DNA from: Craspedostauros australis
Lineage: Eukaryota; Bacillariophyta; Bacillariophyceae; Mastogloiales; Achnanthaceae
Direction of reading: 5' to 3'
Assembly: GCA_026770025.1 (NCBI GenBank)
Contig: JAMXDE010000025.1
Location: forward strand, 558,001-622,000
Length of the DNA stretch: 64,000 nt
Shown piece after piece: positions 17,095-41,226 of this stretch (position 1 is its first letter; each line of letters begins with the position of its first letter). The notes under the pieces are model-generated. The model saw only the letters and a list, made by a program, of their open reading frames with translations, ran no database searches and was not told the origin of the DNA. A program made the position numbers and the translations under genes.

Positions 17095-17131
17095 CGTCTC
17101 TCCTTCGTTGTTTTACTAGTTGTTTTTGCTG

Positions 17132-17175
17132 GGAGTTGTCGGAAAAAGAGAAAATCACGTTTTTCGTGTCGGAGT
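17132..17175 (+). repeat. Harb-1 left terminal inverted repeat
   Basis: It begins GGAGTTGTCGGAAAAAGAG and contains the heptamer TGTCGGA twice, at 17,137 and 17,167, 30 bp apart. It matches the reverse complement of the right end over about 45 bp with a few differences. Confidence 0.85.
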
Positions 17176-18340
17176 CTGTTCACAAATGACAAGAAACTGC
17201 CAGTTGCCAGTTCGCCACACGTGATGGACCGCAATCGATTCGAGATGTTCGACTCATACGACTAGGACAAGAATGCCGAGTTGGTTCACGAGAGCAATCG
17301 ATCATCTCTGAGTCCCGCATTGTGGCGTGTGTGGGGATGGGATTTCCTCGCTGCGTGTTTTGGTGTTGCTCATTCTCGTCACACTTTGCTGCGGTGGTCC
17401 GGAAAGCGCACTGTCGTCTTGGTTGGCAGAACAAGTCCTTGTCTTCTGGTTTGTTGGCTTGTACTACTATTATATTGAACTCATCAAAAGCCCACCAGGG
17501 ACGATCGAGTATCGTTCCTGACCCCACGCCATTTACCTTCTTGATGATGTGATGCGTTTGATTCCCATCAGTGAGAGTTGCCTGCAGGGTAGAGTGCAAG
17601 GAATCCACCAGCAGTATCGCACGGCAAAAAATCACCACAATGCGAGGTGGCCTGATGACCAACCACCAATCGTCACTCTCCACATCACTATGCACTGGGT
17701 GTCACTCTCATCCATCTTTGTGCAACATTGATAGCAGCAGACTCAAGGAGTAGCAGCCCAATCGATGTTGATAGAGTATGAATCCTTGTCCCATGCAATG
17801 ATATCAGAGCTGATCACGCGCCGACATGCTCCATTTTGTTGCAACATGCGCAGACCGTGCACGCACACCGCAGCATACTCCCTCTGGAGAGAGAGAGAGG
17901 GAGAGGGAGAGATCGTACCTCCATGGTCGCGTTGTTGAGTCTCGCATCGTTGAATACGAAGCAATGTTGTACACACTCAAGCGAAGGGAGTTCCTCGATT
18001 GGGTCTCCTTCGCTGCGCTTTGTTCTCGAGTTGACTGTCCGAAGAGCGCGCACAATTTGGCGCACGCAGAGTAGTGCAGTACTTTCTCATCGTGCCGCGC
18101 TTACATGCTCGTTGACGTCCTATCCATCCCAGAATTGCTGCATCGTCTCACAGTTCAGGACAAGGTGTGGTGTATCTGGTCAATAGAATAGTTGAGAATA
18201 GATCTAATACGATTATAGTATATGAGTGTCCGTGCAGTGCTCTTCTATTTGCCGGATTCGACGCGATTCAATCTTCTGGTTGCTGTTGCAAGATGCGTTC
18301 CAGACCACGAATCCCTCAGTATTGTTGAAACTTGTATGAT

Positions 18341-19461
18341 CTAGTATTGTACTTGGAATAGAGAGTTGCCATGTTCGATTTGAAGCTGGGTTATGGTGAC
18401 AATTGCTTTCATCACATGCTTGTGCAACATAAGGTCATGGCGGAAACGATTCTCCAGGATCTTCCAATTCTTGAAGCGGCCATTCACAGTCTCATGGCGA
18501 GCACGAGCTTGGCTTTTGGCTTGCTTCTCCGCCTCTGTAACAAAATCATCGGATGTTCGGACAGCTTCGTCACCGCGGTATCCACGATCAGCCTCCACCA
18601 TCTCACCATCATCCAAGTACTGTTTCAGCAAAGAGCGAAAGATCTTGAGGTCTGGGTGCCGCCCACAAGCAAACGGACCATTCATCCATACAATATCTCC
18701 CTTTTGGATCGACACAGCGATCTCATATCTGATTCCAGCCGATCGGAACTTGTGCGAATACCACTTGCGATCGAATGGGGTTGGCTCGTTGATCTTGAAA
18801 TCAGTGCCATCAACCGTGACCAGGCATGATCTGTTCAAATCCCCAGAGTATCGGTTTTCCCACAGGATCTTTTCATGGCGACGTCAAAGAGAGACAAGCA
18901 GTGCAAAAGATGTGAGCTTGTTTGTTGCTGAATCAATTGTGAGTGAAATGCATTCCCCTTGGGACTTACCACATCATTTTTCAAATCTGCTACAGCCTTG
19001 ATGGCTGACCAGATATGGAGCTTGAGAGTCTTATCCGTGGTCCGAAGGAAGACGCATGCCATGCGAACGGATGGGTAGTGCCGCATGTAGTACAGGGCCC
19101 AAAGGAGATGCTTTGGCTTCAGGTCCCCACGACGTGCTGCAAGTGCCCACAGCACAGAGCAGAGATGAGGCGAAATCCCAAATGCAACGGTAAAGTCCTC
19201 CCCAAATGCACCTGATCGGCATCGTAGATTGGTGATGCACTGGCCAGGGGTGAGAAGGATGTAGCGCGCAAGATCGAGGAAGTCTTGCACGCTGCCGATG
19301 GAGTACCGATGGTCGTAGGCACCATTCAACATTGGTTGGGTGTTTGCTCGAAGGAAGAAGTTGGAGCTGAAGTGATTGCTGTCCCTGCCTCTCCAAATCA
19401 TGAAGGATCGGCCAACTGACTTGGGAGAATCCGTGTCCAATGATGGGGTTGTCTGCTTCAT
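18341..19461 (-). CDS. Harb-1 transposase (PIF/Harbinger DDE, DDE_Tnp_4), two exons
   Basis: This enzyme cuts and rejoins the element ends. Exon 1 runs 19,461-18,970 and exon 2 runs 18,868-18,341, with a 101-bp intron between GTAAGT and AG. The spliced frame reads ...ADLKNDV then ILWENRYSGDLNRSC, about 339 residues. The catalytic triad is visible in exon 2: D in TVDGTDF, D in ADRGYRGD and E in RHETVNGRFKNW. The intron position and both flanking sequences match the Harb-2 transposase. The N-terminus is uncertain. A good acceptor (tttacag) lies just upstream of the ATG at 19,461, and an open frame continues at 19,480-19,964, so a further 5' exon is likely. The gene diverges from the partner gene at 27,581. 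Confidence 0.82.
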
Positions 19462-19989
19462 CTGTTCTCTTCTGTAAATGGTTGCTGGCTTGCACCAGTA
19501 GATGCAGCCACTGGCATGGAGCCATTCGCATCCCTCTGCATTTGAATCGTTGGAAGCAGAGCATCACATTGTGTTCGTGGTTTTTGATTGATGTTGGCTG
19601 TGCGATGATGGCGATGCGAAAACCGAAGAGCATGGTTCTGTGGTGACCGGGGTGCCCCAGTTGATGGTGTCCTCCGCCGAGGGGCCGCCTCCGGGAGGGT
19701 TGGATGGTGTTCTTCTTCGTCTGAATTCGACACAGAAGAGAGGAGCAAGAGATGTTGGTGCTTGGCTTGAATCATTGTTGTGAAGCACCACCCCTGGTTC
19801 GTGTGTCTGCTTCCGTTGCATGTGGCAACGCAAATCGAAGAACAGGCCGATCGGCCAAAGCGCACCTCTGCGATGAGCTGTCCTGCGACGGGGTCAACAT
19901 GCTGTTCGGTGGGACCAACTTCGACACAAGCCAATGACAAGTAGCGTTGAGTACTCCACTCCACACCATTTCAAATCGAGGAGCCAAAA

Positions 19990-20275
19990 AGGCGTCCGAC
20001 AAGTACGCAATTCGCATCCGACAAGTACACGATTTCCATCCGACAGATACTAAATAGGCAAGAAAATTAACGGTTTAGTAACCGTCGGACTAGAACTTTA
20101 GAATTGTCGGAGTAGAAATGGCGAACCACAAATTCTGTCTTTTGTTTTCTACGTGAGCTACTACTGACTGTTGCGTAGGAAAGCACACATGAGACTTGTC
20201 GGCGAAAACCAGGTACTTGTCCCCCCAAAAACGAATACCGTCGGTTCCTAAGAATTTCTTGTCGGAGGGTCAATA
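19990..20275. promoter_or_regulatory. Cluster of TGTCGGA motifs between the divergent Harb-1 genes
   Basis: TCCGACA/TGTCGGA occurs at 19,995, 20,017, 20,039, 20,105 and 20,260. One-base variants occur near 20,083, 20,197 and 20,239. The first three are evenly spaced by 22 bp. The same heptamer occurs twice in each terminal repeat. I infer binding sites for the transposase or the partner protein in the shared promoter region. Confidence 0.6.
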
Positions 20276-20326
20276 TACAGATTTGAAGACATCATTCCAA
20301 GTGAGCCGTCCAAAGCACATGAAGCT

Positions 20327-21287
20327 TGTCAGGAATCGGGTGTTGTGAAACACCGAATTGCCGCACCTCCCAAGAGTGTGGAGTTGAGCATTGTGGAATG
20401 CTACATTACCGCACCTCCCAAGAAGTCAAGAGTCAGGAGTCGAATGTCATGAAATTATACATTACCGCAACTCCCACGTTTGATCATTGTGACACAGAAA
20501 AATGTGAGCTGCACGTAACTTGTGGTGGAGAACGCCACGTGCCGAATGCGAACCGGACTATGGTGTCCGTGACCTCAATGCAGGAATGCCAATCACACGT
20601 GTATGTCGCAGGGGGCGGGGATGTTGGAATCGTGACCAACATCACGATACGAGCGACTACGGCCCCCATGTCGCAACCAATGAAAAAGAGTACTGGAGGA
20701 AGGCCAATGTCACGAAGTGTGAGACGGCCTGTGAACGAACCAGTGATGACGAACTTCCAGGAAGCCGGTGAAGTGATCGGCGAAGTAATGGGAGAAACGA
20801 CAGGAGAAGCATCGGAGAAGATCGGAGATGATCGGAGATGTTTGATGGTCGAGGAGCTGAATGAGCTCCCAACCAAGGTGCTCCTGTGACGAGTGGGAAA
20901 TCGTGATCTGATCGAATGAACCGATCTGTGTGATGCCTACGACTCGGCGATGTCTACGCTAATGAAACTATTGGTAGAGGGCAGGAGATGGAATATCTGA
21001 GATGCATGATGAGATGCATGATGAGATGAACCAATACTGCAAGATGAGATGTACATGGAGTACATGCTGCATGACATGATGAAGCAGGAGGACAGCACTG
21101 CATGAGCAAGGGCAAGACTGTGTGCTACTGTGGATTATGTATGCTTTGGCAAATGGAATTGAAAGTGATGATGTTGTACTCACAGTTCCAACAATGCAAT
21201 AACATGAATAGGTAACCAGAGACTACTACTAGAGACTGGGGTACCCCGGATTTCCAACAGAAGCTGAGTATGCTCACCAAATCCAAC
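20327..21287 (+). repeat. Copia-2 5' LTR
   Basis: 961 bp beginning tgtcaggaatcgggtg and ending ctcaccaaatccaac. It is the same length as, and by eye identical to, 26,285-27,245. It contains short internal duplications such as repeated gatgagatgcatgat near 21,000. Confidence 0.92.
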
Positions 21288-24200
21288 GTTTCCACCACCA
21301 CCAACACTAGCCAACATCACCATCACCGACATGACCACCATCTACACTCAAGACCATCGCGAGTAATGGTCCCCTGTGTGAAGAGAGAGGAGAGCAAGCC
21401 GCTCTGGAGCATGATGCTCCTTGCCAATGGATGCCAAGATCGGCATGGCAACCCTCACACGAACGACGATGTCAAGACGATGATGATGATCGAGTCGAGC
21501 ACCACCGCGAGTCCACCAGCAGAGTGGAGACCGCAGCTGAGGCAAGTACAGACACTACATGTATTGCCGGAAGCAAGGAGGGCGCTCGACACACGCATTG
21601 GAAGAACTGTCCATGGTCATGGGACCATGAAGTCAAGGAAGGCATGGAGACCTTCACGGCTGTGTTGGAGTACGAGAGCGAGCTGTACGCAAGAAGAGAT
21701 TCGGACGCAGCAGGCCACGCTCTCGGATGCATCGGATTCAGCAGACTGCGCCATGAGGGCGAGACAGCTGACGGAGCTCAACAAGATGCAATTGAGGAAG
21801 CAAAGAGAGCTTCCAACCTACCCTGCAAGAATGTAGCTACCTCATCAGCACTCGGTCGATATGGAAGCCGAGATGGACGAGGAGCAACACCAGATCGCTG
21901 ATGCTGAACGTCTGTGCGCATGGCGCGCGCGACGCAATCGAGCACGAGCATGCAGGCAGGGATGATAAGATGAAGGACGATCTAGACCTACGCAGGAATG
22001 GGCATGGCCCATAATCGAGACGACATCAAGAGTGACGCGAGGAGCAGCAATGGAAAGCATCGAGATGATCATGTGGCACCAACTGCCGTCGTGAGATACA
22101 TGCTCGAGGGCTGGCTGCGATTCCTACTGTGAGATGATCGAGATGGTAAGGATGCAACCTACCAAGCCACGAATTGGCAACAACAACGAAAATAGCAACA
22201 CAGGAAGTGTGTGCTTCGACGAGAAGGGAAAGCGCTGGAACAAGCTGGACGGGAGGTCCTTCCGCGCTTCGATCCCAGGCTCAATACGAAAGACGAGGAA
22301 CAGGAGGTGTCCTCGCCATCGGAAAAGACGATGATTCCAGACATCCGCAGAGCCATGAGCCTCATCTACGACCGCCACCGTATCAAACACGGTTATAAGT
22401 GTGCACGAGGCAACGGCAGTAAGAGAGTGAGATAAAGATGACACTGACAACGGATCGGTCGGTTCAGGAGCAGACGCCCTAACCGCGATGCCCACGATAG
22501 TGAGATGAAGGAAGCCAGGTCGACCAAGGTCGCGATAGACGGGATGGATGACATCGCTCTCATCACAACCGACGAGCCGATGTCCATGCCCATCAACGAA
22601 AATGTGGTCGGCATCAAAAATGTGACCAACGCGAAATTTGTGGCCATCACCGAAATCGCGAACAACGACCAAAAATGTGACCATGAGAAGCCACACGGTG
22701 ATGCGCGACGACAACGCGATCACGAACAACATGGCACTCGTAACAATCAACAATGATGGGGTTTCCGGCTTCGACAGCGGAACACCAGTCAACGACTACG
22801 AGTGGACCAGGGAGGAGATAGCCGAGTACACTCCAGGAGTGTATAGCTACTACGGGTCTACGAACGATCACGATGGAGTTGATCAACAGACAACCCTTTC
22901 CATCCGAGAATGAAGAGGAAGACGGCAACGCCAACTACAACGAAGGCGAACGAGAATGAGGAGCGCAGAGGACTGCACATTAATGCAGGTCCGATCTGCC
23001 TCTTGGCTCGATACTCGTTGAGCAGCATGACGTCTGCCAACGATGTGCGCGTCGAGCTTTCGATGATCTGCGACGATGCGATCGACGAATTCGAGAGACG
23101 ACTGTGCAGATGAGTGCACCCATGCGGGTTGCACTACATGATGCATAAGCACTACATGATGCATGAGATTGGCGTGCGGAGCGCACTCGACGTGGCTCGC
23201 AATGTGTACGCAATCAACGACATGCTGGAGAACAGCAACCTCGCTCCAACCCAACAGATGCTGATTGGATACAGAAGTCGCATGCAAGCGGTATGGACCG
23301 CACGAGTGAACCTGGTGATGACCAGGATCCTAATCACGATGAACGTGACATGGATGGATACGTCATGTGAGCAATTCGAGAGTATTGAGAATGCCAGCAG
23401 GTCAGTACTGACAGACCTGGGAGATGGCGACTCTACTTCAGGGATGATTACCCCAGATAGAAGAGTGACTTGGGAGCGGCGTGCGGATACCATCCGAAGC
23501 ATGGAGACCGACGACGCTGATCAGAGCAGAAGAGCCGGAGAGGATACAGATACAGAAGACGCTGCTCGAGGGCAAGATGACTTGCTCCCTATCCAAGGGG
23601 ACAATGAATCGTACGATGACGACGACGATGAATCTGGAAGGGACGATGAGACGGGACAAGACGATTTGGTCGAGAACGCACCAAACACAGTCCCAATCGC
23701 AGAACCTGTCTTGCACATGCCGAGGATGCTGAGTGCTCTCGTGGGATGCAACAATACACCCATCCGAAGGAGGAGCGAGAACTCGGATCAGGTGGAGAAT
23801 CAGAATCAGAGAATGATGAGGGGTATGAGACCACTCGAGAGATGACTACCACACCATCGGCGACAGGAGGACCCAACATTCACACAGAAGGGTCAACATT
23901 CAACAGAGATATCGCAGGCATGACGATTGACACCACTCATGAGAAGATGAGCCTGGGTGACTTCATCACTGCGAACCAAGCATTGAACTACAGACAGAAC
24001 GAAGAGAGGGATCCGAGCAAGCAAATGTCGCAATGATGCTGGATCCAACCACAATTGACGAATGACGGGGTCATGTGGATCCCAAGAAGAGCAATGAATG
24101 GCGGGAGGCCATGATGGAATGGTTCAGTGATATGGCCATGGAATGAACATGGCAGATGATCAAGAAGAACCGGATGCCGAATGATCGGCGAGATACTACA

Positions 24201-26284
24201 AGCACAGATATGAGATCGATGTGCGATGAGAGTGAGATTGATGAGAGAGAGACTCGAATCTGGAAAGGATACAGCTATGAGAGCGCGAGCCATGAACGGC
24301 GGATTCCAGATACAGTGAGTCAAGACGCATCAATATGCGATCAATGAGAGAGACGCGGGCATGTCGGATGAAGAATCCAATGACAGAGCCGGAAGGGAGG
24401 AACCTCAGATGAATGGAGGATGAATGGCAGGAGGCCACCAACAACTCCCACGACGAAGAAGCTGCAGCATGATGAATCGATGCTATCCAGAAGAGGATGA
24501 AGGCGATCGACAACGCGGTTGCAAGGCAACACGACAACAGAGCTGGCAGCTGACCACAATGTACCAATACCCAACAAGGGTGACGAACGAAGCATCAGAA
24601 TCAGGAGATGACGATGGCTGCGCAACTGCACAGGAGACGAAGACTGCTCCAGTGGCAACAGACGGACCCAACTTCGAACAAGACGGGTCAATCATCAACA
24701 AGGACGTCGCAGGCATGAGGATCGATGCTATCCAATGGAGGATGAGAGTGATCGACTTCATCGCTGCAAGTCAGGATGTTGAGAGCGAACGCGACGGCGA
24801 GAGAGATTCGTGCACATCAACACTGGAATGATGCCGAGTCTATGAGCGCCTGAGGAGTGCCAGGATCATGTGGATCCTGATGATCGGAAGGGACGAAATA
24901 CGAGTGACCCGGAGGCAATCGCTGAAAGCGAGGACCTTGAGTACTCTCCCATGAGACCAGTGGCGAGGATGCCACGGATGATACGCGGCTTGGCACCGCA
25001 CAACAACGCGCCAGAACACCACTCCGACTCATATTCAAGAAGTGGAGATGGTGAATCGGTTGAGGAAGCTGAGAAGGCCCCAGCAACCGCGAGAGAGGGA
25101 ATGAGACGTCCGAGCATGCATACACGGCTATGATGCTGGACCCCACCACATCCGAAGAATGCTGGGACCATGCGGATCCAGCGAAGCGAAGTGAAAGTGA
25201 TGGCAGGAGGCCATCAACAAGGAGTTCTACGACATGGTCAGACGAGGAGTCTGGCAGAAGATCAAGAAGAGCGAGATGCCGAGGGATCGGCAGTGAATGA
25301 AGATGAAGTGGGTCTTCAAGGAGAAGAGATCTACATGCAGTGTCCCAAGAGAAAGGAACACGAACCGGATGGATGCCTGCCGCTGAAGAAGACCATCTAT
25401 GGGTCGGTGCAGAGCGCGAGGCAATGAAATGAGGAGCTTGTGAACACATTGACCAAGCTTGGCTTCTGGCAGAGCAAGGCGGATCCATGTCTGCTAATCC
25501 GGAATCGGGAAGGGAGCCTCGTCCTCATCAGGACGTACGCCGACGATCGCCTGTGCATCGGAAGCACACTCGAGCTGAAGCAATCGGTGAAGAACATCAA
25601 GGGAGAGTGATTCGGAATCAAGATCGAGAATGGTCTCGAGGACTACTTGAATTGCCGCATCGGATCCAATGAGAGCAAGACCAACCGCTGGGTGAACCAG
25701 CCACTCATCATTCAAGAGGAACAACAAAGCTTCAAAGATATGGAACACCTGGTATACATGGCCAAGGGATCCAGAGGAACAACGAAGCACCCAAGGTCGA
25801 TATGGATCGACACAGCAGATACCACAGTGGTGTGGGTGTACTGCTATACCTGATGGTTGACAACAAGACCAGACGTCGCGAATGCCATCCGAGAACTGAC
25901 GAAGGTGTTGGATGGGCCAACGACCACAGCATACGAGATGCTGAGAGTGACGAAGCTCGTGTCGGACACGAGTATATGGATTGAGGATGGAGAGACCTGT
26001 GGATGTGATGGTTGACAACATGAGAGCGATCTTCATCGCTACCAACCCATCGACATCAGCCAGGACGAGAAACATCGACGTGTGCAATCACTTCATCAGA
26101 GAGCTGATTGCGAACAAGGAGGCGAGAGCTCGATTCGTGAAGTCAGAGGACAACATCTCTGACGGGTTCACGAAGAATACAAGAAAGGAGATCTACGATC
26201 GGCACAAGGGGGAGCATCATTCAGCCCAGGTCAGCATTGGACTGAGCAAGGTGGATGATATGGTCGGAACGGCAATTGGAAGGG
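21288..26284 (+). pseudogene. Copia-2 interior: broken gag-pol remnant
   Basis: Similarity to Copia pol is visible near the 3' end (RT and RNase H motifs between about 25,300 and 26,220). The 5' two-thirds is acidic-biased and repetitive, with only short open stretches and no intact domain I can name. It is broken in many places and cannot encode a functional polyprotein. Confidence 0.75.
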
Positions 26285-27245
26285 TGTCAGGAATCGGGTG
26301 TTGTGAAACACCGAATTGCCGCACCTCCCAAGAGTGTGGAGTTGAGCATTGTGGAATGCTACATTACCGCACCTCCCAAGAAGTCAAGAGTCAGGAGTCG
26401 AATGTCATGAAATTATACATTACCGCAACTCCCACGTTTGATCATTGTGACACAGAAAAATGTGAGCTGCACGTAACTTGTGGTGGAGAACGCCACGTGC
26501 CGAATGCGAACCGGACTATGGTGTCCGTGACCTCAATGCAGGAATGCCAATCACACGTGTATGTCGCAGGGGGCGGGGATGTTGGAATCGTGACCAACAT
26601 CACGATACGAGCGACTACGGCCCCCATGTCGCAACCAATGAAAAAGAGTACTGGAGGAAGGCCAATGTCACGAAGTGTGAGACGGCCTGTGAACGAACCA
26701 GTGATGACGAACTTCCAGGAAGCCGGTGAAGTGATCGGCGAAGTAATGGGAGAAACGACAGGAGAAGCATCGGAGAAGATCGGAGATGATCGGAGATGTT
26801 TGATGGTCGAGGAGCTGAATGAGCTCCCAACCAAGGTGCTCCTGTGACGAGTGGGAAATCGTGATCTGATCGAATGAACCGATCTGTGTGATGCCTACGA
26901 CTCGGCGATGTCTACGCTAATGAAACTATTGGTAGAGGGCAGGAGATGGAATATCTGAGATGCATGATGAGATGCATGATGAGATGAACCAATACTGCAA
27001 GATGAGATGTACATGGAGTACATGCTGCATGACATGATGAAGCAGGAGGACAGCACTGCATGAGCAAGGGCAAGACTGTGTGCTACTGTGGATTATGTAT
27101 GCTTTGGCAAATGGAATTGAAAGTGATGATGTTGTACTCACAGTTCCAACAATGCAATAACATGAATAGGTAACCAGAGACTACTACTAGAGACTGGGGT
27201 ACCCCGGATTTCCAACAGAAGCTGAGTATGCTCACCAAATCCAAC
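26285..27245 (+). repeat. Copia-2 3' LTR
   Basis: 961 bp, matching the 5' LTR. Downstream, 27,246-27,580 is the resumed Harb-1 intergenic sequence with no gene recognised before the partner-gene ATG. Confidence 0.92.
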
Positions 27246-27580
27246 TGAGCTCCCACAAAAAGCAAATTCGACCCACGAGGAAGTTGCATTCCGAACAAAA
27301 CAGGATGATGGCACCTCATGCCCTCATGTACGCACCACAATCCTCCTCATCTGTGCAATACTGTTGATTGAAACAGGCAATGACGAATGTGACAGCCTGA
27401 ATGCTTGCCGTAGTCTGGCTGCGTTACTCCTACCTGCGTGCTTGATTTGAATAGACAGCTGGTTGATCGATCGATGATACCATCCCCCAGCATTGGTCGA
27501 GTTGTTTGCAGCGTTGCACTCGCAGTATCTGCTGTAGCAGGGGTGTCCATCACAAGCCCACAATTCAGCTTACCTCCAAG

Positions 27581-29707
27581 ATGGCACAAATCCAAGTTGC
27601 TCGAGCTCAAAGGTGGTCACCCGCAGGAGATCACGCTGCTTACATCATCAAAGGTTTCATCTCCAATCCTCCTCGCTTCCAACCAACCAAGGAAGGCTTC
27701 TCGAACTTCTGGGAGTCGCACGTCGAGTGGCACAGTCTCTACAGCCAAAAGAACACGAAGAAGAATTTCCTCAATTGTTGGGCCCGTCTGCTGAAGTTCC
27801 TCGAGAGTGGAAAAGGTGCGTCCGTTTTGTGATGTTGCCTGTTGTGACTATTATTGTGATCGCCGACTGTCCTGACATGTTCGTGAACCAAATCTCTTCT
27901 CACACAGCTCTGATTTGCTTTGCTGTGCACAGGATTTGGATCTGATTTTCGCAAGAGGTGCGGTCTGGATTCCACAGAACGCCTTGCAGAATTGCGTGAA
28001 CAACGCGGAATCGACCTGAACTACCGACCAGCACAAGGCGCTGTTAACAACACCGATGCCAATCACCCTCCTGCTGCTGATCTTGCTCGCGGTTCTTCTT
28101 CGGACGACGACGAAAGTTACCTTCCTTCTGTTCATTCTGATCGTCTCGGCTCTGCTGTATCTTCAGACAGCTTGGAGCTCGACCCAGGATTCGTTGACGA
28201 CGATCTCTCTCAAGCTACCCCACCATTCATTATGCCTCGTCGTGGAGTTCAAGGCCCTCGTGGACCCCCTGTCCGAGACGTGAACAAGCCAACACCTCCT
28301 CCTGCCCCCAAGCGCGACGCCACACCCAACGACAAGACCATCATGGATGCCATGGGCAAGATGGGAATCCGGAGTGCAGATCGCGCCATGAGCCCTGTAC
28401 TGGACATGGTCAAGCTCGGATCATTCACTGAACGTGCTTTCGATCCTTTGACAGCTGCGAATGGAACTGGGCGCTACCGTGAGGGGATTCACATGTTTGT
28501 GGTCCTGGACGCAAAGGTAGATCCAGATTCTGTGGCGCTGTCTACGGAGGATGAAGGGTGGACACTGAAGCTGACATACAAGGTACCAAAGATGTACTTC
28601 ACAGCAGAGTGCATCTACGGAGTCTACGGATACGACAAAGGGTTTTCTACAAGCCTTGCGGCGGCTAAAAATTATTTCCAGGATCTCGCTCGGAAGGTCA
28701 CCGACGATGCAGGCGAGCTTGTTGTCAGCTGCCAGTTCAGCCTCCCAAGGAAGATTGACAGCCTCTTCCGCAACGTCAAGACCAAGGACCTCGAGGAACC
28801 CAACTTCGAGATCGTGGAGAACTACCTTGGCACCACCACACTGGTGACGTTCTGCTTTTTTCAGGAGAACTTCAATCAGCAGCAGTTCGGGACGGCTGGT
28901 CGTCGTGGCGTCCGAGGCTTGGATGGGATGGTGTACTCCTTCAATCCCATCATGCCTGCGCCCGCCGTCCCGACCGCACAAGGATTCGGCTCCCACCCCT
29001 TTGGCCATCCTGCTCCAACCCAACCAGGCGGTGGCAGCAGCAACCATCATCCTGCTCCGTTCGGATCTCCGATTCCCAATTCTGGTGGCGGGTTTGCCAG
29101 CCCTGCAGCAGCCACCCAGAATGCTGCCCAGACTGCTGCGCAGACTGCTGCGATCCGCCAGCAGATGGAGCGCGAGGCCGCGGCCCAAGTTGCTCGAGCG
29201 CAAGAGCTAGCTCGCAAGGAACGGGCCGAATGCGAGGCTCTCTTGCGTGCGGCAAAAGAGCGCTCCCAGCTTGATGCTCAGGCCAAGGCCCGAATTGAGC
29301 ATGAAGCTCGGGCCCAGTTCGAGGCCATGCGCAACGAAGCTTATGCTCGTGAGCAGCATGCGCAGGCTCGGCTGGCTGAGCTTGAGGTGCAGCTCCTTCA
29401 AGCTCACACCAACGCATCCCTGGCTGCCCACAGCTCCAGCGGGTTGCCTGGTGGTGGTGTTCCCGACCCAGTCTGGAGCTCCTCTCAATCCAGCAGTACT
29501 GGGAGCTCCATCCCCACTGTCGAGATGGAGATGACAGCTCTGACGGGCTCTGTGCGCCCCCGCAACGGTGAGGATGCCCCACGTCGTGATGATGTGCTCC
29601 GCCTGAAAGTGGATGAGGTATCAGGCGGAGCTGCAGCAGGAATGCCTGATGGAGTGAATGGCAGTGTTGTGTCTGCCGATGCAACAGGGCACACTGTGAA
29701 CGCCTAA
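27581..29707 (+). CDS. Harb-1 partner protein, unknown family, two exons
   Basis: I do not recognise this family. Exon 1 (27,581-27,815) starts with ATG in a good context (caagATGG). Exon 2 runs 27,933-29,707. The intron is 117 bp (GTGCGT...TGCACAG) and the join reads ESGKGFGSDFRKRCGL. The product is about 669 residues. Exon 1 is a small aromatic-rich domain (NPPRF..., FWESHVEWHSLY, KKNFLNCWARLLKFLES) that could be Myb/SANT-like, which is speculative. An acidic Ser/Asp linker, a ~190-residue globular region (residues ~180-370), a Gly/Pro-rich region and a long Ala/Glu/Arg coiled coil (~480-575) follow. Its domain order, intron position and divergence from the transposase match the Harb-2 partner gene. 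PIF/Harbinger elements typically carry a second, DNA-binding protein needed for transposition, and this is the natural candidate. Confidence 0.7.
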
Positions 29708-30049
29708 GCGCAGCGCAACGCAGCACACCGCATCAGCCTGAATGCGTCAACAACAACAACAACAAAATCACCGCATCACCGTGAATGCGTCAACACCAGA
29801 AACATCACACGAGAAGCAGCAAAGCACAGAAATCACAGACAGAGAGCACTACTCCCCAGAGTAGATCACACAGAATAACAACAACAGCACGAACAAAACC
29901 AAAACAAACACCAAAAAACAACGAAAACAACAGAAACAGAAACACAAAGGAGAGAACTAACTAAGTACTCAATAGTAGTAGGAACAAACAAAGTACCATG
30001 ATGGGTGCAAACCACATATTTATGTCTAATCAAGTACTTAGTCTTGCCA

Positions 30050-30093
30050 ATTCCGACATAAAAAGTAAGCTTTTCTCCTTTTCCGACAACTCC
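30050..30093 (-). repeat. Harb-1 right terminal inverted repeat
   Basis: Read on the minus strand it begins GGAGTTGTCGGAAAAGGAG. TGTCGGA occurs at 30,082-30,088 and 30,053-30,059, mirroring the left end. The CTG duplication follows at 30,094. Confidence 0.85.
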
Positions 30094-30179
30094 CTGTCTG
30101 TTGTTTGTCTTCGATTTGTTTATTCGTGGTTTATTTGCTGCGACAATTTCTTCCGGAAGTTGGTTCCATTCGGAAATTG

Positions 30180-30195: not shown

Positions 30196-30200
30196 CTCTA

Positions 30201-30251: not shown

Positions 30252-30280
30252 TTGGCCCCTTGTTGCCACTGGTTTGCTTG

Positions 30281-30330
30281 GGGGGGGGGGGGGGGGGGGG
30301 GGGAGAACGGAAAATCGAGGGTTATCCGAA
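30281..30330 (+). repeat. Harb-2 left terminal inverted repeat with a long G run
   Basis: A homopolymer of 24 G (30,280-30,303) followed by agaacGGAAAATCGAGGGTTATCC. The right end has only six C, so the run has expanded here or is a sequencing artefact. A second TTATCCGAC occurs at about 30,380. Confidence 0.7.
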
Positions 30331-30814
30331 GTATGGAAACTTCACTAAATTTGCGTAAACCAAACAAAGTTTGCCAAAGTTATCCGACAATATGCCTTGT
30401 TTTGGACATTTAGCTTATGCTACACCCAAAGTAGAACAATGTACACAGTAGACAACACAGTGGGAAGCTACAAGGGATGCCAAAATGTCGTTGTTGCACA
30501 GAATATGCCTCTTCTTGTTTCAGACTTTTGAAGAAAATACAGGATTTTCGATTTGTTCTGAATTGATTGCTAAAGTTGGTAGTGCGACACAAACTCGCAC
30601 ATTGTTCGGTATTATTCCTATTCATTTCCACGGTGCCCATGCAACTGTGCCAGGCTGGGGTCCTCTCTGTCTTCCACATGGTGTTTTCATGGCATCGCCC
30701 TTTCCTTCCTGAGGTGTATGAGATGCCGTCTGCATGCTGTGCTTTCCTTACCTCCTGCGATTGGGGTGCCACTACTGCTGCTCCCGTTTTCGTGTTCACC
30801 TGATGATTCGGCTT

Positions 30815-33480
30815 TCAACTGCTGCTGTTGCTACTGTGATTAGTCTGTGCACCTGATCCTGATGTTGGCACTGTTGAAGTTTCTCCATGGCTTTCTGTGC
30901 TGTCATCAGTATCTCCTGGTACATTTGGAGCGATCCCATCGGTGCCCTCATGCATGGTGGTGACTTCTCCATCGACTTTCTCTGCTCGTCCCAATTCTGT
31001 CTCTTCCGTGATTGCTGCTGCTGGTGTATTTCCAGAAACTTGTCCTCCTCCTCGTCCTGCTGCTTCAGCTGTGATCAGTGGTGGTGGCGGAGGTGGCATA
31101 TTGGATACTCCTGCTCCTGCTGTGGTTGCTGGTGGTGGTGGTGATGGTGTGCTTCCAGAAACTCGGTCTCCTCCTGTTGCTGTTGTGGTTGCTGCTGGTG
31201 GTGGTGGTGGTAGTGGTGGAGGAGGTAGCATATTGGATGCTTCTGCTCCTGCTGTGGTTGCCGGTGCGATTCCGGAAACTCGTCCTCCTGCTGCTCCTGC
31301 TATGGTTGCTGGTGGTGGTGTGATTCCGGAAACTTGTCCTCCTCCTGCTGCTGCTGTGGTTCCTGGTGGTGGTGGTGTGATTCCAGAAACTCGGCCTCCT
31401 CCTGCTGCCGCTCCAGTTGTCATCAGTGGTGGCGGAGGAGGTGGCATATTGGATGCTCCTGCTCCTCGTGCTGGTGGAGGTGGCATGTTGGATGCTCTTG
31501 CTCCTCCTGCAGTAGGTGTGCCAGCAGTTGGGATGATCTGAGATGGGAGGAGCTCGTTTCCCAGCTCCCCATCAAGTGTCAGATCCTCATAGTCGATTGC
31601 TCGGCCGTCACGGTGATTGCCATCAGCAGAATTGTCCAAAATTTTTATCAACGAACCATAGTGGAGGCAAGGTCTCTTCGATGGGGAGCTTGGTTGGCCT
31701 CCTGTTTCGCGGAGCCTCTTCTCTCGTCGCTCCTGTCGATGGAGCGCCAGCTTCGCCTCTGCAGCAGCAAGTCGGATTTCTTGCACTTCCAGCTCTGACT
31801 GCAGAATAGAAGTTGCCTCTGACATGACAGAGTGGACGTCTGTCATGTCAATCGTAGGTGCTGGTACTGGTACTGGTGCCAGAGCTGTTGCCGGTGCTGG
31901 TGTGGGTGCTGGTGTGGGTGCTGGTGTGGGTGCTGGTGTGGGCGCTGATGCTGGAGTTGCCAATGTAGCTGGTGGAAGGGTCCATTGCGGATGAGTATTG
32001 CTGGAGTGGGATGCTGCTGTTGGGATCGTGTCCGTGTGTTGAGTGTTGGTGTTGGAAATGGTGATGGTGCTGAGATTTGTGTGAGGAAATGTGATGCTGC
32101 TGTGGGGGTTTTGGTTGGCACCAACAGATTCAGGTTTCCGCGCATGAGCATGGATGTCGTCGTCCTCCAAAAAACGGCATGTTACGCCCACACGCGTTGT
32201 TTGCTCCTTCAAACGAACAGTGAGAATGAGATGTTCGTGCTCGCGGTCACTGTTATCTTTCACAGTGTGGCGCAGGATTGCAGCCCCTTTGACAGTGCGA
32301 CAAGGAGTGCCACAGAACCAAGTATCGATTGGGAACGGCATTGGCACAAACATTTTGCACCGTCGGTCTGCTGTGAAGGGCTCGATTTTACACTGGCCCT
32401 CGTGCGCGAGCTTCTTCTGCTCCATGTCACCGTACCAGCCACCAAGATGTGATGCAAGGACTTGCGCGACTCCACCGGGTCCACCAAGCGCTTTGGGTGG
32501 GGTGTACAACAACACCACAAATGGCTGTTGTGCTCCATCAACATCATGGTACTGGATTGTCACCTCAGCATCGGTTGGTGTTGCTGCTGCAGGTAGGTAG
32601 AAGTCAATGCCCAGCATGCGATACGCTTGTCCCACTGGCGTCCAAATTTGCGATGTATGGAACACCTCGATGGTCTTGGGGAAAGCGCAAAACTCTTTCA
32701 CCTTGTCCTTCTCGGACATCGCGAAGAACTGCGAGAAGCGTTCTTTTAGCGGGTCTCGAATCATCAGTGATGTGGGTGAACTGCAGCGATTCTCTGTGTA
32801 ATTGGCAGTGACATCCTCAATTTCACCGTGGTAGACATCATCATCACTCTCAGACTGCGAACTCTCCAAACTCTCCGGACTCAACGATTCCGAACTATCA
32901 TCCATTTGTAGTTCAGTAGTACACGAAGTGCGATTGGGGCTGTTCTTTCGTGATGTGGGTCTGGCTGCTACCTTGGAGGTGGCAGTGGCCGTGTTTGGGT
33001 GTGTGGGAGGAGATTGTTCGTTGTTGGGAGTCTTCGACGGCTTGGTATTATCGAACCCATCTGGTGCATCTAATGGGCGCAGGTTGAAGCCAAGATTGCC
33101 ACTGGCATCAGGATTGAGTTTGCCGTTGTCTGCGCACAACAAGGAGTGATTGGTGTTCATGAGAGGGAAGTGAGGAAAGAAAAACAGAGTTTGAGAAGTG
33201 ATGCACCACACACACATGAACATCACCGGAGAGACCAGCACCATCGTTGCACTCCAACTTACCAAAAAAGATCTTATTTTGTAGCAGCTGTGACTTAATC
33301 TCCTTCCATCCTGCAGCAAAGTTCTTGCATGGGTATTTTTGTCAGAAATGCGAAATGCTGCTGCAGTCTGCGTGCTTCCCAAAACCAGAGAGTGCTGTCC
33401 TTTGAAAGCTCGTAGATGAGCTGCCTGGCATCCCCACCCTTCTTCATGAAGCGTGGATTATTTTCCTTCTTTCGTGGCAT
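30815..33480 (-). CDS. Harb-2 partner protein, unknown family, two exons, exon 1 frame slipped
   Basis: Paralogous to the Harb-1 partner. Exon 1 (33,480-33,263) starts MPRKKENNPRF and ends before GTAAGT. Exon 2 (33,129-30,815) follows TGCGCAG and begins NGKLNPDASGNLGF. Exon 1 contains NPRF...STLWFWEARR and, in another frame, KNFAAGWKEIKSQLLQ, which parallels KKNFLNCWARLLKFLES of Harb-1. The frame slips once near an A-run at about 33,338, so this copy may be inactive or the base call wrong. Exon 2 encodes ~770 residues: an acidic Ser-rich linker, a globular region (~33,000-32,200), a PTPA-repeat stretch, a coiled coil with a basic KRP-type tail, then many near-repeats of a Pro-rich unit (SNMPPPPPP, VSGITPPPP) at 31,030-31,530. 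The gene diverges from the transposase. Confidence 0.65.
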
Positions 33481-33950
33481 GATGAATGCTGCAAGATTGT
33501 TTTTGTGATGGAAGACTGCCCAATTTGCAATGCCCAAACAACCCCAAACCTCTACATCTCCGTGCTTGAGGGGTGGCATTGGCGTGAACCAAGACAGAAT
33601 CGACCATACAAAAGCCAAATAGCAGTGTTCCAACACCATCACATCCCATCCCTACTGCCATGGAGGGCAGGCCTACACCGCCCTCTCGACCTTCTCAACA
33701 ACGATGAATCCACTGTTATCTGTAGATAGAAGAATCGCAACATACCAGTCGTACTGGTGTAACGTGATGCTCGTTGGTTCCAGGACGGGAGAAATAGTCC
33801 CGTCCAGGGAGGAGCAACATCACAATTGTCCGCGACCTGGACTACATGACAGCGCATGTATCGTCCAACAGCGATGAAGGGAGTATGCCAAACAAACAAG
33901 CAAACAAACAAGCAAACAAACAACCAAAAACGGCATTGCGGAGTATGTAT

Positions 33951-34200
33951 GGGATTGTGCAATTGTGCCAAGCGGTAGCTAGTGCCTCAATTGGGGCTTT
34001 GATGTACACAAATGCACTTATCGCCCTCTATCGGCATTGTAAATGCGAAAAGATGCATCTATGCTTCCAAAGTGCTCAAACAAAGCAGGATTTGGACTCT
34101 TGGGTCATACTCGCGCATAATTCTGTTTCTCCCAAAAGGCGCAGATGGCATTTTGCAAACACAAGGTAGAGGGAGAGGCAGTACTATCTGTCAGAGTGGA
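33951..34200 (+). repeat. Direct repeat D1 (about 245 bp), left copy
   Basis: About 97% identical by eye to 37,311-37,560 (both read tagctagtgcctc..., ...gtagagggagaggc). The two copies bracket the minisatellite region. They hold no coding signal and no TG...CA ends, so I do not call them LTRs. Confidence 0.85.
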
Positions 34201-34399
34201 ACCGGTCATCTGCTGTCTATGTCGAAAGCATGTTCATGATGTATTGATCATTGACAAAGAGTAAACAATACTCTACACTGAGCTCCACCATGTGATAAAG
34301 TATACTCTGTTCTGCAATGATTATAATAACTGTGTTAACGCAGGTTTACTCAGCGAAAACGATTAACTTTACGTAACTTTATTCTGCAACAACGATTAA

Positions 34400-35378
34400 T
34401 TTTACACCAACTTTATTTTCCGCCAATTACGATGTTTGCATAACTTTATTATCCGCCAATTACGATGTTTGCGTAACTTTATTATCTGCCAATTACCATC
34501 TTTGCATAACTTTATTATTCGCCAATTACGATGTTTGTGTAACTTTATTATCTGCCAATTACCATCTTTGCATAACTTTATTATTCGCCAAATACCATCT
34601 TTGCGTAACTTTTCTATCCGCTAATTACCATCTTTGCATAACTTTATTATCTGCCAATTACGATGTTTGCATAACTTTATTATTCGCCAATTACGATGTT
34701 TGTGTAACTTTACTATCCGCCAATTACCATCTTTGTGTAACTTTATTATCCGCCAATTACAATGTTTGGGTAACTTTATTATCTGCCAATTACCATCTTT
34801 GCATAACTTTATTATTCGCCAATTACGATGTTTGTGTAACTTTACTATCCGCCAATTACCATCTTTGCGTAACTTTATTATCTGCCAATTACGATGTTTG
34901 CATAACTTTATTATTCGCCAATTACGATGTTTGGGTAACTTTACTATCCGCCAATTACCATCTTTGTGTAACTTTATTATCCGCCAATTACGATGTTTGG
35001 GTAACTTTATTATCTGTCAATTACGATGTTTGTGTAACTTTACTATCTGCCAATTACCATGTTTGCGTAACTTTATTATCTGCCAATTACGATGTTTGCG
35101 TAACTTTATTATCCGCCAATTCCGATGTTTGGGTAACTTTGTTATCTGTCAATTACAATGTTTGTGTAACTTTATTATCCGCCAATTACCATCTTTGCGT
35201 AACTTTATTATCTGTCAATTACGATGTTTGCATAACTTTATTATCCGCCAATTACGATGTTTGCATAACTTTATTATCTGCCAATTACGATGTTTGGGTA
35301 ACTTTATTATCTGTCAATTACGATGTTTGCATAACTTTATTATCCGTCAAATACGATGTTTGCGTAACTTTATTCCTC
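34400..35378 (+). repeat. 33-bp minisatellite, about 29 units
   Basis: The unit is tttgcgtaactttattatcy followed by gccaattacgatg, with common variants (gcataac, ctgcc, taccatc). Units abut with no unique spacers, so it is not a CRISPR array. Since 33 is a multiple of three, frames stay open and mimic an 11-residue-repeat protein. The unit shares TTATCCG and TTTGCGTAA with the Harb-2 left end. The flanking stretch 35,379-35,900 shows no gene. Confidence 0.92.
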
Positions 35379-35904
35379 CATTCCAAAATTAGCAGCTACA
35401 CTGACAGCCAAAGACAAGCAAATCAATGGATACACAAACAGACCATGCACAACAGATTGTGACAAGCCTCTTTTTGGCTTTTGTTGCACTCTATGGCTGT
35501 ATAAGAACACAAACAGACACAAATATAGTAAAATGTGGATTGTTTGGTAGTCACAAGCAAACATACACAAACACAGACAGCCATATGCATAAACAGCCAC
35601 AGAACAAGAAACCATCTCTGCAGCCATGGTTGTAGCTCGAAATCGGTCTTTCTTGGATGATGATCCTGTGCTAAACGAGCAAACCCCGAGGTCCTGCAAC
35701 ATCTCAGCTCTGTTCATCCCTACCCTTTTGTCTTGGTTGGTGTCAACTTCGGAGGTTGGGTGGGCCAACTGTGTCCTCAACTGACAGACGCTGGCAGTTC
35801 AGCACAGACACACAGACAGACAAACAATCTGGAGTAAACAGCCATAAACACACAATCACGAGGTTACAAAGTTTATGCCTTTTTGTACGCAATCGTCATT
35901 ATTC

Positions 35905-36776
35905 GCGGAACAATCCGAACTTTGTTTTCGCATACATACGCAAACTCACAATGCCTGGTTTGGGAACAGTAAAGTTTGCGAACAATCCCATCTGTGGTGG
36001 AAAAATTCTTGTTGTGGATTGTTGTTCTTTGTGGAACAGTCCAAACTTTGTTTTCGCATACATACGCAAACTCACAATGCCTGGTTTGTGAACAGTAAAG
36101 TTTGCAAACAATCCCATCTGTGGTGGAAAAATTCTTGTCGTGGATTGTTGTTCTTTGCGGAACAGTCCGAACTTTGTTTTCGCATACATACGCAAACTCA
36201 CAATGCCTGGTTTGTGAACAGTAAAGTTTGCAAACAATCCCATCTGTGGTGGAAAAATTCTTGTCGTGGATTGTTGTTCTTTGTGGAACAGTCCAAACTT
36301 TGTTTTTGCATACATACGCAAACTCACAATGCCTGGTTTGTGAACAGTAAAGTTTGCGAACAATCCCATCTGTGGTGGAAAAATTCTTGTCGTGGATTGT
36401 TGTTCTTTGCGGAACAGTCCGAACTTTGTTTTCGCATACATACGCAAACTCACAATGCCTGGTTTGTGAACAGTAAAGTTTGCAAACAATCCCATCTGTG
36501 GTGGAAAAATTCTTGTCGTGGATTGTTGTTCTTTGTGGAACAGTCCAAACTTTGTTTTTGCATACATACGCAAACTCACAATGCCTGGTTTGTGAACAGT
36601 AAAGTTTGCGAACAATCCCATCTGTGGTGGAAAAATTCTTGTCGTGGATTGTTGTTCTTTGCGGAACAGTCCAAACTTTGTTTTCGCATACATACACAAA
36701 CTCACAATGCCTGGTTTGGGAACAGTAAAGTTTGCGAACAATCCCATCTGTGGTGGAAAAATTCTTGTTGTGGATG
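35905..36776 (+). repeat. 126-bp minisatellite, about 7 units
   Basis: Units contain aacagtccgaactttgtttt, catacgcaaactcacaatgc and atcccatctgtggtgg, with pairs of units alternating slightly (gtccaa/gtccga). The period of 126 (3 x 42) keeps three frames open on both strands, giving deceptive ORFs of ~310-320 residues. Confidence 0.92.
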
Positions 36777-36819
36777 GTTGACCATGACACATTCTTTTGT
36801 TTGCAACGTGCTCTTTTGA

Positions 36820-37050
36820 TTGTGTGGACAATCATTCACTGACACAGACTGTATGTATATCAATCGATGCGAAAGAGAGCAACAAAACGATACCGAGTTT
36901 TGTGGACAATCATTCACTGACATGGACGGTATAACAATCAATGCGAAAGAGAACAACAAAACAATACTGAGTTTTGTGGACAATCATTCACCGACATGGA
37001 CTGTACAACAATCAATGAGAAAGAGAGCAACAAAACGATACTGAGTTTGG
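36820..37050 (+). repeat. 75-79-bp tandem repeat, three units
   Basis: Three copies of gtggacaatcattcac...gagcaacaaaacgatac...gagtttt directly follow the 126-bp array. No coding signal. Confidence 0.85.
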
Positions 37051-37310
37051 TAGAGAGTACATTGTTGCGAAATACGCTTTTCTTCATTCGTACTAATACT
37101 ACCTTTCACCAATCCATACATACATCATTCCAGGACATGCCATAACATGTACTCAGAGTACTCTAGCATGATTGCAAAGTGATGTATTGCACTCTGTGTA
37201 GTATGTTCATAATACCTTTGTATCACTCAATGCGGTTTGCGATAATTTTCCGCCGCCAATAGAGTGTTTGTAGATACGCTCACACGTACGCTACTTTCAT
37301 TGTCACATTG

Positions 37311-37560
37311 ATTTGTGCCAAGCGATAGCTAGTGCCTCTATTGGGGCTTTGATCTACACAAATGCATTTATCGCCCTCTATCGGCATTGTAAATGCGAAA
37401 AGATGCATCTATGCTTCCAAAGTGCTCAAACAAAGCAGGATTTGGACTCTTGGGTCATACTCGCGCATAATTATGTTTCTCCCAAAAGGCGCAGATGGCA
37501 TTTTGCGAATGCAAGGTAGAGGGAGAGGCGGTACTATCTGTCAGAGGAGAACCGATTTGC
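37311..37560 (+). repeat. Direct repeat D1, right copy
   Basis: Matches 33,951-34,200. The following stretch 37,561-38,520 has no gene I can support. An upstream exon of the transposase could lie at its right end, because a strong acceptor (ctttttgcag) sits at 38,521-38,530. Confidence 0.85.
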
Positions 37561-38599
37561 GACTATCTTGTACCCATGCAAAGCATGGATGTGATGTACT
37601 GATTGTCAAACGATAAATCTTGGTGCTGCCATCATGTGCCCCCTGCTCTCTTGGATGAATCCTTTCTGTACAGGAAGGACTAGGAATCCCATAGGTGACA
37701 CAAGTGGGAGGATCTATCATTGAAGGAGCCAGACATGCTTTTCTGCAGTGTGAAAGACCGCTTTTTATCACAGATCTTGGATGACAAAGAACAGCACCCA
37801 AACGTGAGTACATAATCGTAGAATCCCCGCGTTTGTTGCAAATGCCACCATCCATTCAGCCGTATGTGCAAGTATGTTTCATGCCTGGAATGACCCCATT
37901 CCCATCTTGTGCATACAGGTACTGTAGCTTGGGCATGTGTCGCTCCTTCACAAACACTTTGAAATGGCTTGGGAACAAGCGAATATAATCGTGAACACTG
38001 CTTCCCAAACCGCATAGCCGTGACAATGACCAACAAATACAGGGGGAGAATGCGCCTTCATGTGGTTGTGAACGCGCAGAAACGTTCCATTGTTCGCGAA
38101 GTGCCACCGACGTGGCAGCACTTGTGACCGTCAATAGGGCCAATCCGAACCAGCAAAACCGGATCTTGCATACACTGGTCCTGACAATACAGGTCATCAA
38201 TACATAACTGGTCATCCTGGCACACCCCAAATCGCAAGCCACGATTCCTGTGGATCTTTTACAAACCAGACTTCACGGAATTGAATCCTGTGACACCATT
38301 GACAAAACGAATTGTGTATCGAACTTGTCATGATATTGTGAACTGCGTCCAAGACACGTTCACAACCAAGCGCAAGATTCTGTAAATCATGGAATGCCGT
38401 TATGCAGATGTTGACCTGCAATTCATTGAGGAGCTCCGACGTATCTTGAGCCCTAAACGAATCGATCTGATTGGCCGAGAAGCCCATTATATGAAATCAT
38501 GATCCTTGCCATCGCCTCCACTTTTTGCAGCAAACAACGCGCGGAGAGGGTGTGTGTGATGTCATCCCCACGAGTTTGCCTCACCCTGTGACAGTGTCA

Positions 38600-39872
38600 A
38601 TGTTTTGCTGTGCCAAGACAAGATCATGGAACACATCGCGATGTGCACTTCAGGATCCACCGAGAAAGGGCGTCGATGGAAGATGCGAGTTGGAGAACAC
38701 AACAAAATCAAACACAGCACCCCACGCATCGAACGCCATACACATTTGTTGCCATCTCCAACAACAACTCCACTCACCAGGCAACACCAGCACCATTCAC
38801 CAAATGCAACCGCAAGCATCAATGCAAGAAGCCGCCACTACATCCAATGTCGCCCATGAGGGCATGCACCTCCTTGGACGGCCTGTGACAATTGATCAGT
38901 GCAATCCTCCCCCTCCCTGGATGCACAGAACCTTCCAAACATCATTTGGAACGAATGCAACGGTGGCAGCAAAGGTGTGGGAGGGCCTGGTCCACCATGA
39001 CCTTATCCCAAGCAACGCATGCATGGAACACATGCTCTCGGCCATGGCCTTCCTCAAACAATACTCCTCATGGGATGCACTAGCTGTGAGACTCAACCGT
39101 GATCGGAAAACGTTGATGAAATGGACATGGATCATGCTGGAAGGGATGGGCAGGTTGAGCACAAAAATTGTAAGTCAACCGTGGCATGCATGTGCCTTGA
39201 TGACTGCTGCAATTTGCTCCACACCTCATCCTTACTCACCATCGTTGTCAACTCTCCGATGCTTTCTTCCAACCCTGTTCCCTGCACTTGCAGATACTCC
39301 TAAATGATCGAAAAATAAATGCCAAGCCTCATGCAAAGCAGCTCATGTCTGTTGATGGAACGGATTTCCGCATCGTTGAACCAAAACCATTCAACAAGCT
39401 CTGGTACTCTCACAAATTCAGACATGCTGGGCTTCGATACGAAACTGGTGTGTGTATTGAGACCGGACATCTTGTGTGGGTGCGGGGACCCTATGTTTGT
39501 GGTGAATACCCAGACATCACCATCTTCCGTGAATGCCTCAGACAGCAACTGGATCCTGGTGAGCAGGTCGTCACAGACAAAGGGTACAGAGGCGAGGCAG
39601 CATGTTGTTTGGAGCGCACTCGTTTCAATGGAGTTGTCCGTGCCCGCCATGAGACCGTCCACAAGAGGTTCAAAAATTGGGGGTGTCTTGACAACAAGTG
39701 GCGCCATGCTCACGAGCGGCATCAGCTTGCAATGTATTCGGTAGCTGCAATAACACAACTGGAGTTGCAGCACACAAACCCCTTGTTCGACATTCACCAG
39801 ACAATGGCAAACATAATGGAGGTGAGAACCTGGGTTGCCTCGCTCGTGGAAGATCCAGAGCAGAACAGCTAA
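38600..39872 (+). CDS. Harb-2 transposase (PIF/Harbinger DDE, DDE_Tnp_4), two exons
   Basis: Exon 1 ends at 39,169 (AAAATT, then GTAAGT). A 124-bp intron ends TTGCAG and exon 2 begins at 39,294, so the join reads RLSTKI-ILLNDRKINAK. From the ATG at 38,600 the product is ~382 residues. The frame is open further upstream and a 5' exon is possible, so the start is uncertain. The triad lies in exon 2: D in SVDGTDF, D in TDKGYRGE, E in RHETVHKRFKNW. Exon 1 aligns with the Harb-1 enzyme (FGTNATVAA.../FGEDFTVAF..., RDRKTLMKWTW/RTTDKTLKLHIW). No lesion is visible after splicing. Together with its intact triad this suggests a recently active enzyme. It is divergent from the partner gene and separated from it by the minisatellites. 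Confidence 0.85.
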
Positions 39873-41184
39873 TGCATAGATAACACATTGGTTCATAGAG
39901 TACAGGTTTAATTCACAGCCCTTGGTGCTGTAGTGGTGTGTCTTGCCTTTTGGATAGCACGTGGAGATGCATGGAGGCACTGGAATGGTGACTCCAAAAC
40001 TGATACGACGCAACAATGTGATGGCATGCTTGGGCGATGAGCATACATGTTGCTGTGGACCAACACAGCGTTGCAGAGGAGTGTATGTGCATGGCGCATT
40101 GTGTCCACACAGTCGTAGTTGCCAACGATGTCTCTAGAAATGATGCCGAGATTCTGTGAGACTGCATGTGCTGAATGAGCCACTGCTACTATACTGGAGG
40201 CGTGATTTCGCATCGTGCGGACCCAGGAATACAGAGGCACCAAGGAGGAAGCCAATCTGGCTGCTTGACAAGTGTTGCTTTGGACCAGACCAGTGCAACG
40301 GATCCAAGAAAGGGAGCGTGCAAGCGAAGTGCATGGGACTGGTGAAGCTATCTTCGTGTAGGAATCGTTGTACACACTATAGTAGAGTTGCTGTGAGAAA
40401 TGGCTGCAACCGAGGATACAAGTAGTCGTATACCGCGAGGAGAAAAGAATGATGCATGCAGATGGCACGCTGTGCTCGACAGCCGCACACAGAGCAAAAG
40501 GGGAGAGGCAGGAACAGTGGCGAGATGACTAGCACAAGGGTGACTACATTGTCATGGGGGTGCATGTGTGGGAACAAGATCGCACCTATGATGCCTGTGA
40601 AGGATACAGAGACGAACGAAGATGGCTCACAGAACTGCTGATCGACAGGCTGAGGGGGTGATGGTGTGAATCGATGGAAGGCAACCGAAGAGGAGCAGGA
40701 TGATGAATGAATGAAACCAAAATGGGCGAGCATCACAGCAATGCAAGAACGAAGAAGGGTGCTACATACACAGAAGAAGAGAGAGATGACGATGGGACGC
40801 GATCAAAGCGAAGATCGATTTGGCTTGCCATCATCAAACCCGAAATGCGGCGACCGATTGCAAGTCGACGGCATTGATTTTGTCTGCCTGAAGGCGTAGA
40901 CCCAGCCAACCGACAGGAAAGATGGGTAAAAAATGAACGCCACCACAAACCAGCGCAGCCTGACGGACGGCACAAAAGTCTTCTGGAAGAATGGCGAAGA
41001 CAACGACAGAGTCTGCCAACCTGCGAGGACCAGAACCACACGGAAGGCGCTGACAGCGACTGTCAGACACAAAGCAAAACAAAAGCTGTAGAAAGCAATC
41101 CCGAAACAGAAAAATGGCAAAATCACGATGAATTAGAGTGTAAAGATGAACAAAGATGAATAATTCTGCTAGTAATTACGAATC

Positions 41185-41226
41185 GGTTTTGGATAGAGCT
41201 CCTTTTACGATTTTCCACTGCCCCCC
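41185..41226 (-). repeat. Harb-2 right terminal inverted repeat
   Basis: Read on the minus strand it begins GGGGGGCAGTGGAAAATCG and later contains CTATCC. TTG (the TSD) follows at 41,227. Confidence 0.7.

Follow-up and report, generated by a model that had tools for sequence, protein, structure and literature searches.

A divergently transcribed partner-gene family linked to one PIF/Harbinger transposase clade in the diatom Craspedostauros australis

The window analyzed here, a stretch of 64,000 nucleotides from Craspedostauros australis (contig JAMXDE010000025.1, positions 558,001 to 622,000 of the forward strand), holds two transposable elements side by side, Harb-1 (17132-30093) and Harb-2 (about 30281-41226). 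Both are confirmed as genuine PIF/Harbinger elements: each has a DDE_Tnp_4-type transposase, terminal inverted repeats (TIRs), a 3-bp target-site duplication and two independent genes, the second of which is transcribed divergently from the transposase gene, has two predicted exons and encodes a protein that we call the partner. The partners make up an accessory family of a single Harbinger clade, one that is both genuine and abundant; the two-protein system itself is already known.

The two elements and their genes

Harb-1 was recognized by its ends (GGAGTTGTCGGAAAA...) and is flanked by CTG on both sides. Its inverted arms (17131-17173 and 30052-30094) are 43 nucleotides long and 81% complementary, and in all seven Harb-1-type copies whose two ends could both be read (the copy in the window is one of them), the same three bases of the form CNG stand on either side of GGAGTTGTCGG...CCGACAACTCC (CTG in three copies, CAG and CCG in two each). 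The transposase gene lies on the minus strand, where exon A (19461-18970; placed by the gene model and the donor position, with an uncertain start codon), an intron of 101 nucleotides and exon B (18868-18341) add up to 339 residues as modelled. Exon B, which carries the DDE domain, matched DDE_Tnp_4 over the curated Pfam cut-off (E = 2.6e-12), and a phase-0 GTAAGT donor was present at a like position in 5/5 of the transposases shown. All splice sites given here are sequence predictions, not derived from RNA.

The Harb-1 partner, on the plus strand, comprises 670 residues in two predicted exons. Exon 1 (27581-27815) carries the (K/R)NF module; it is followed by a predicted phase-1 intron (27816-27932) and by exon 2 (27933-29707), where an acidic linker and a core (about 28352-28930) are accompanied by Pro/Gly stretches and an Ala/Glu-rich, probable coiled coil assigned by eye.

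Harb-2 is flanked by TTG on both sides and has the ends GGGGG...GGAAAATCG and CGATTTTCC...CCCCC. The right end is at 41226 and the left one at about 30281, its edge being uncertain within a run of G; the inverted ends are short and imperfect. Duplications could be assigned in three of four Harb-2-type copies (TTG, TTG and AAG), the fourth being ambiguous. The transposase gene, on the plus strand, consists of exon A (38525-39169), an open frame whose true start is uncertain, and exon B (39294-39872), whose DDE domain again matched DDE_Tnp_4 over the curated cut-off (E = 2.6e-7).

The Harb-2 partner, of about 840 residues in two predicted exons, is encoded on the minus strand. Its exon 2 (30815-33129) encodes an acidic linker, a core and Pro/Gly repeats, and is separated by a predicted phase-1 intron (33130-33262) from exon 1 (33263-33480), whose frame is broken in the window. 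Eight further copies of this subfamily have an exon-1 match; the exon is open in seven of them and has a stop in the eighth. The window Harb-2 partner is a decayed copy of a gene with intact copies elsewhere in the genome. The first-pass annotation had proposed, for both elements, a spliced DDE transposase and, divergent from it, a spliced partner of 670 to 840 residues, and this layout was borne out, with two predicted exons in every gene. The proposed partner architecture also stood as regards the exon-1 module, the acidic linker, the core and the Pro/Gly regions, although the core and the coiled coil are described from sequence alone.

Duplications of the form CWG are used by other PIF/Harbinger members. 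The TTA/TAA duplication attributed to plant PIF/Harbinger elements in the part of PMC2213677 considered was not seen; the copies showed CTG, CAG or CCG (Harb-1) and TTG or AAG (Harb-2) instead. With Harbinger3_DR, Ping/Pong and PIF, as presented in passages of PMC2836001 and PMC2213677, both elements share the DDE_Tnp_4 transposase, inverted ends, 3-bp duplications and two separate genes, but they differ in having partners of 670 to about 840 residues with a core that matches no recognized family.

Genome-wide linkage and relatedness of the partners

Searches were carried out in the species' own genome (74.8 Mb, 90 contigs). The 16-base Harb-1 end occurs there 57 times and its reversed control not at all. 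When ends in opposite orientation and within 15 kb were paired, 25 complete Harb-1-type pairs resulted, and every one (25/25) encloses a transposase together with a partner core; their lengths are 6033 to 6073 bp in 23 cases, 11,316 bp in one and 12,964 bp for the window copy. Seven of the 57 ends stayed unpaired, four being near both genes, two near a partner row only and one near a transposase only.

Partner-core matches (rows) numbered 181, namely 44 of Harb-1 type, 67 of Harb-2 type and 70 of further types, the last reached through the transposase relatives L062 and L063, which had appeared partnerless. These are the rows kept out of 88, 131 and 75, respectively, after removal of exon-1 rows and small fragments from the former two sets and of five short fragments from the third; a few may be parts of a single locus. 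In 140/181 rows the nearest listed hit was a divergent transposase within 12 kb, whereas random placement under the same nearest-hit rule averaged 4.3 and reached no more than 13 in 200 trials. Counting any divergent transposase among the matches listed, the figures were at least 143/181 within 12 kb and at least 149/181 within 20 kb. Considerably more than a hundred sites in this genome carry the pairing, a wider occurrence than the first-pass annotation had stated, and most partner homologues adjoin transposases.

Seen from the transposase side, a diverging partner lies within 12 kb of 138 of the best 150 matches listed in a search with the Harb-2 transposase, versus 4 of the 83 other DDE_Tnp_4 matches listed, all four of Harb-1 type. 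For the other 79 no such partner was found nearby, and a more distant one would escape this search. These counts support the view that the partner family is tied to one transposase clade, across subfamilies. No match was obtained when viral_contigs were scanned with the Harb-2 transposase.

Other DDE_Tnp_4 elements of the same genome (L002-L008), whose single-exon transposase frame spans about 444 residues, belong to the same Pfam transposase family, and a second long open frame adjoins the transposase in 7/7 of them. However, their transposases are 24 to 32% identical to those of the Harb clade (two compared), and the neighboring frame is convergent, not divergent. The N-terminus of this frame looks Myb-like, which Pfam did not confirm in the three scanned. 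The titles and abstract beginnings searched describe no partner of the Harb kind, although an earlier notice in Repbase or in the 2004 Harbinger paper is possible. Harbinger-like elements are mentioned for Thalassiosira pseudonana in a passage of PMC2806351.

As for the relatedness of the partners to each other, exon 1 encodes in all types a module of ~60 residues that mostly ends in a (K/R)NF-like motif and in which aromatic positions recur. Single profile comparisons between the Harb-1 (P1), Harb-2 (P2) and third (P3) types gave E-values of 0.0021 (P1-P2), 0.00057 (P2-P3) and 0.0028 (P1-P3), with HH probabilities of 13%, 30% and 11%, respectively, and each comparison exceeded 60/60 shuffles. 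A predicted phase-1 donor follows shortly behind the module in 11/11 genes tested, in agreement with the intron at an equivalent place reported by the first-pass annotation. Outside this test were the translated exon-1 pieces L086, L091 to L093 and L096; L088 and L089 gave no frame by motif.

An hhalign comparison of the second-type core with the third-type core gave E = 7.5e-7. For partner 1, an initial hhalign comparison with thinner profiles was negative (E = 0.13 against partner 2 and 0.38 against the third type), and a single comparison with a profile into which the remaining types had been merged gave E = 0.0041, an HH probability of 8% and a score of 24.9. As background for this score, 150 column shuffles, one value of which is a repeat or stale, averaged 12.6 and peaked at 20.2, and the reversed profile scored 12.1. 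Hence, the exon-1 match, the shared intron place and the core matches make a distant kinship of the two window partners within a single family probable; the least certain part of this assignment is the core of partner 1. The claim of one shared family thus appears to hold across subfamilies, with no Pfam match over the cut-off for any partner scanned, and the partners do align above background in both exon 1 and core, where the scores exceed every shuffle. Neither outcome that the first-pass annotation had named as counting against it was therefore observed; yet the relation between Harb-1 and Harb-2 is weaker than had been claimed (E = 0.002 for exon 1 and 0.0041 for the core).

Possible role of the partner

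DNA binding and catalysis by Harbinger elements are thought to be divided between two proteins. Passages of PMC2836001 state that ORF1 and the transposase are both required in the elements studied and that, in one system, ORF1 binds the element ends and is needed for entry of the transposase into the nucleus. Because known Harbingers need both proteins, and because by eye no other candidate was recognized in the elements, the partner is most likely the element-made second protein that PIF/Harbinger transposition needs, in a putative ORF1 role. Made by the element, from a gene that diverges from that of the transposase, it would supply that role through its different parts: the helical exon-1 module might contact terminal or subterminal DNA, the core could hold the transposase or let the partner oligomerize, and the basic, coiled tail may aid import and assembly.

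The ratio of nonsynonymous to synonymous substitution rates (dN/dS) was 0.06 to 0.26 in five between-subfamily comparisons with at least 64% identity, and the partner is under purifying selection between subfamilies. This speaks for the ORF1 role, as do the position of the gene inside the element ends, its linkage to one transposase clade and the presence of a predicted phase-1 intron at a like place in every type tested.

Several observations weigh against an ORF1 role. No partner scanned had a Pfam match over the cut-off, so that no Myb/SANT, DNA-binding or enzyme family was recognized. The AlphaFold models are of low confidence, with a mean pLDDT (predicted local distance difference test score) of 35 for partner 1 (7-row alignment) and of 40 for L036, a relative of partner 2 (9-row alignment), presumably in part due to the few alignment rows and to the translated introns in both queries. 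A Foldseek search of the PDB with the L036 model, itself poor, gave no match that reached the E = 0.001 threshold, the best value being 0.21. The dN/dS ratio reached 0.38 for a pair 36% identical, with two further pairs saturated, and 0.65 inside the recent Harb-2 subfamily. Other open frames are present in the Harb-2 repeats. Finally, 32/181 partner rows are without a listed divergent transposase within 20 kb (in L065 and L066, the unlinked Harb-1-type rows examined, a decayed-looking transposase lies nearby on the same strand, not divergent), and the rows descend from one another and are hence not independent events, while the arrangement recurs in every type. As a whole, the dN/dS pattern agrees with a protein that is selected while the elements move and decays afterwards.

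Structure prediction and profile searches, which had been recommended for identifying the partners, returned no Pfam or PDB family: sequence searches of the PDB with the partner gave nothing convincing, and an exon-1 profile from which the Harb-1 type had been left out found no Myb-like chain there, the best hit being a helicase (E = 0.031). Ten-residue mean pLDDT values clearly above 60 occurred only in exon 1 of the L036 model, which was modelled as short helices, the last one long (means of 59 to 81 over residues 11 to 60). An HSP20/p23-like beta sandwich was considered for the core and found no support, with no Pfam or PDB profile match and no Foldseek match for the poor model; the likeness in strand pattern was an impression only.

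The helical appearance of exon 1, together with its recurring aromatic positions, would suit an ordinary Harbinger ORF1 in which the exon-1 module is a Myb/SANT tri-helix that has diverged strongly, with extra sequence behind it; the partner would then act in the manner of known ORF1 proteins and be novel only as a variant. With the Myb-like ORF1 of Harbinger the partner shares its place beside the transposase in a two-gene element, a small helical N-terminal module (in the model) and a divergence much faster than that of the transposase, the window transposases being 48 to 50% identical and the partners barely alignable. In addition, Harbinger Myb-like proteins share only scattered likeness between families, according to a passage of PMC9179366. 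On the other hand, neither Pfam (in the partners scanned) nor the exon-1 profile search revealed a Myb/SANT relative, and the partner adds a conserved core, which has no counterpart in the Harbinger literature passages considered, and a long low-complexity tail. We give this explanation a substantial chance, somewhat short of even, and the contrast with Myb/SANT partners drawn by the first-pass annotation is unproven.

It appears unlikely that the partner is dispensable for cut-and-paste and acts instead as an accessory protein shielding the element, from silencing for instance. Its large size, acidic linker and low-complexity tail would suit such a function, and an additional gene, for a dioxygenase, is present in some fungal DNA transposons (as noted in part of PMC12730594), but Pfam recognized no enzyme domain in the partners scanned and, by eye, no other gene fit for the ORF1 role was recognized in the elements. 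That the partners are ordinary host genes which chance to adjoin transposons, a reading to which the 32 unlinked rows could lend some support, is extremely improbable and was rejected on the linkage counts and on the TIR pairs, since all 25 complete Harb-1-type pairs hold both genes and 23 of them are of nearly constant length.

With the partner taken as the likely supplier of the ORF1 role, one might go further and propose that the whole Harbinger clade here swapped a Myb/SANT ORF1 for an unrelated family, made of the (K/R)NF helical module and a beta-rich core, and kept its transposase. We consider this a tentative proposal, less likely than not; if true, the essential transposase contacts and changes in end recognition would become testable. 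Irrespective of the actual role, the partner genes are probably annotated as hypothetical proteins in diatoms, because the family is abundant in the genome and has no Pfam match.

Inserts, repeats and neighboring frames

Harb-1 is unusually long because a ~6.9-kb long terminal repeat (LTR) retrotransposon entered it (about 20327-27217). The insert, with direct repeats 5958 bases apart and 99% alike over the 300 nucleotides compared, is missing from all four Harb-1 copies compared (L011, L012, L013 and L021); it split Harb-1 later. The open frame at 25981 within it looks Copia-like. Adjoining Harb-1 is an open frame of 894 residues (14410-17094, minus strand) with a Cys-rich, zinc-finger-like stretch, by eye possibly a retrotransposon gag.

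Between the two Harb-2 genes, repeat analysis revealed tandem arrays (34277-36821) of a 33-bp unit (29 registers, 34277-35500) and a 126-bp unit (7 registers, 35766-36821), bracketed by a direct repeat of 242 nucleotides at 33963 and 37313.

Model diatoms have only few silicon transporters; in the genome searched here the silicon-transporter family PF03842 had 88 matches, of which about thirty approach full length.

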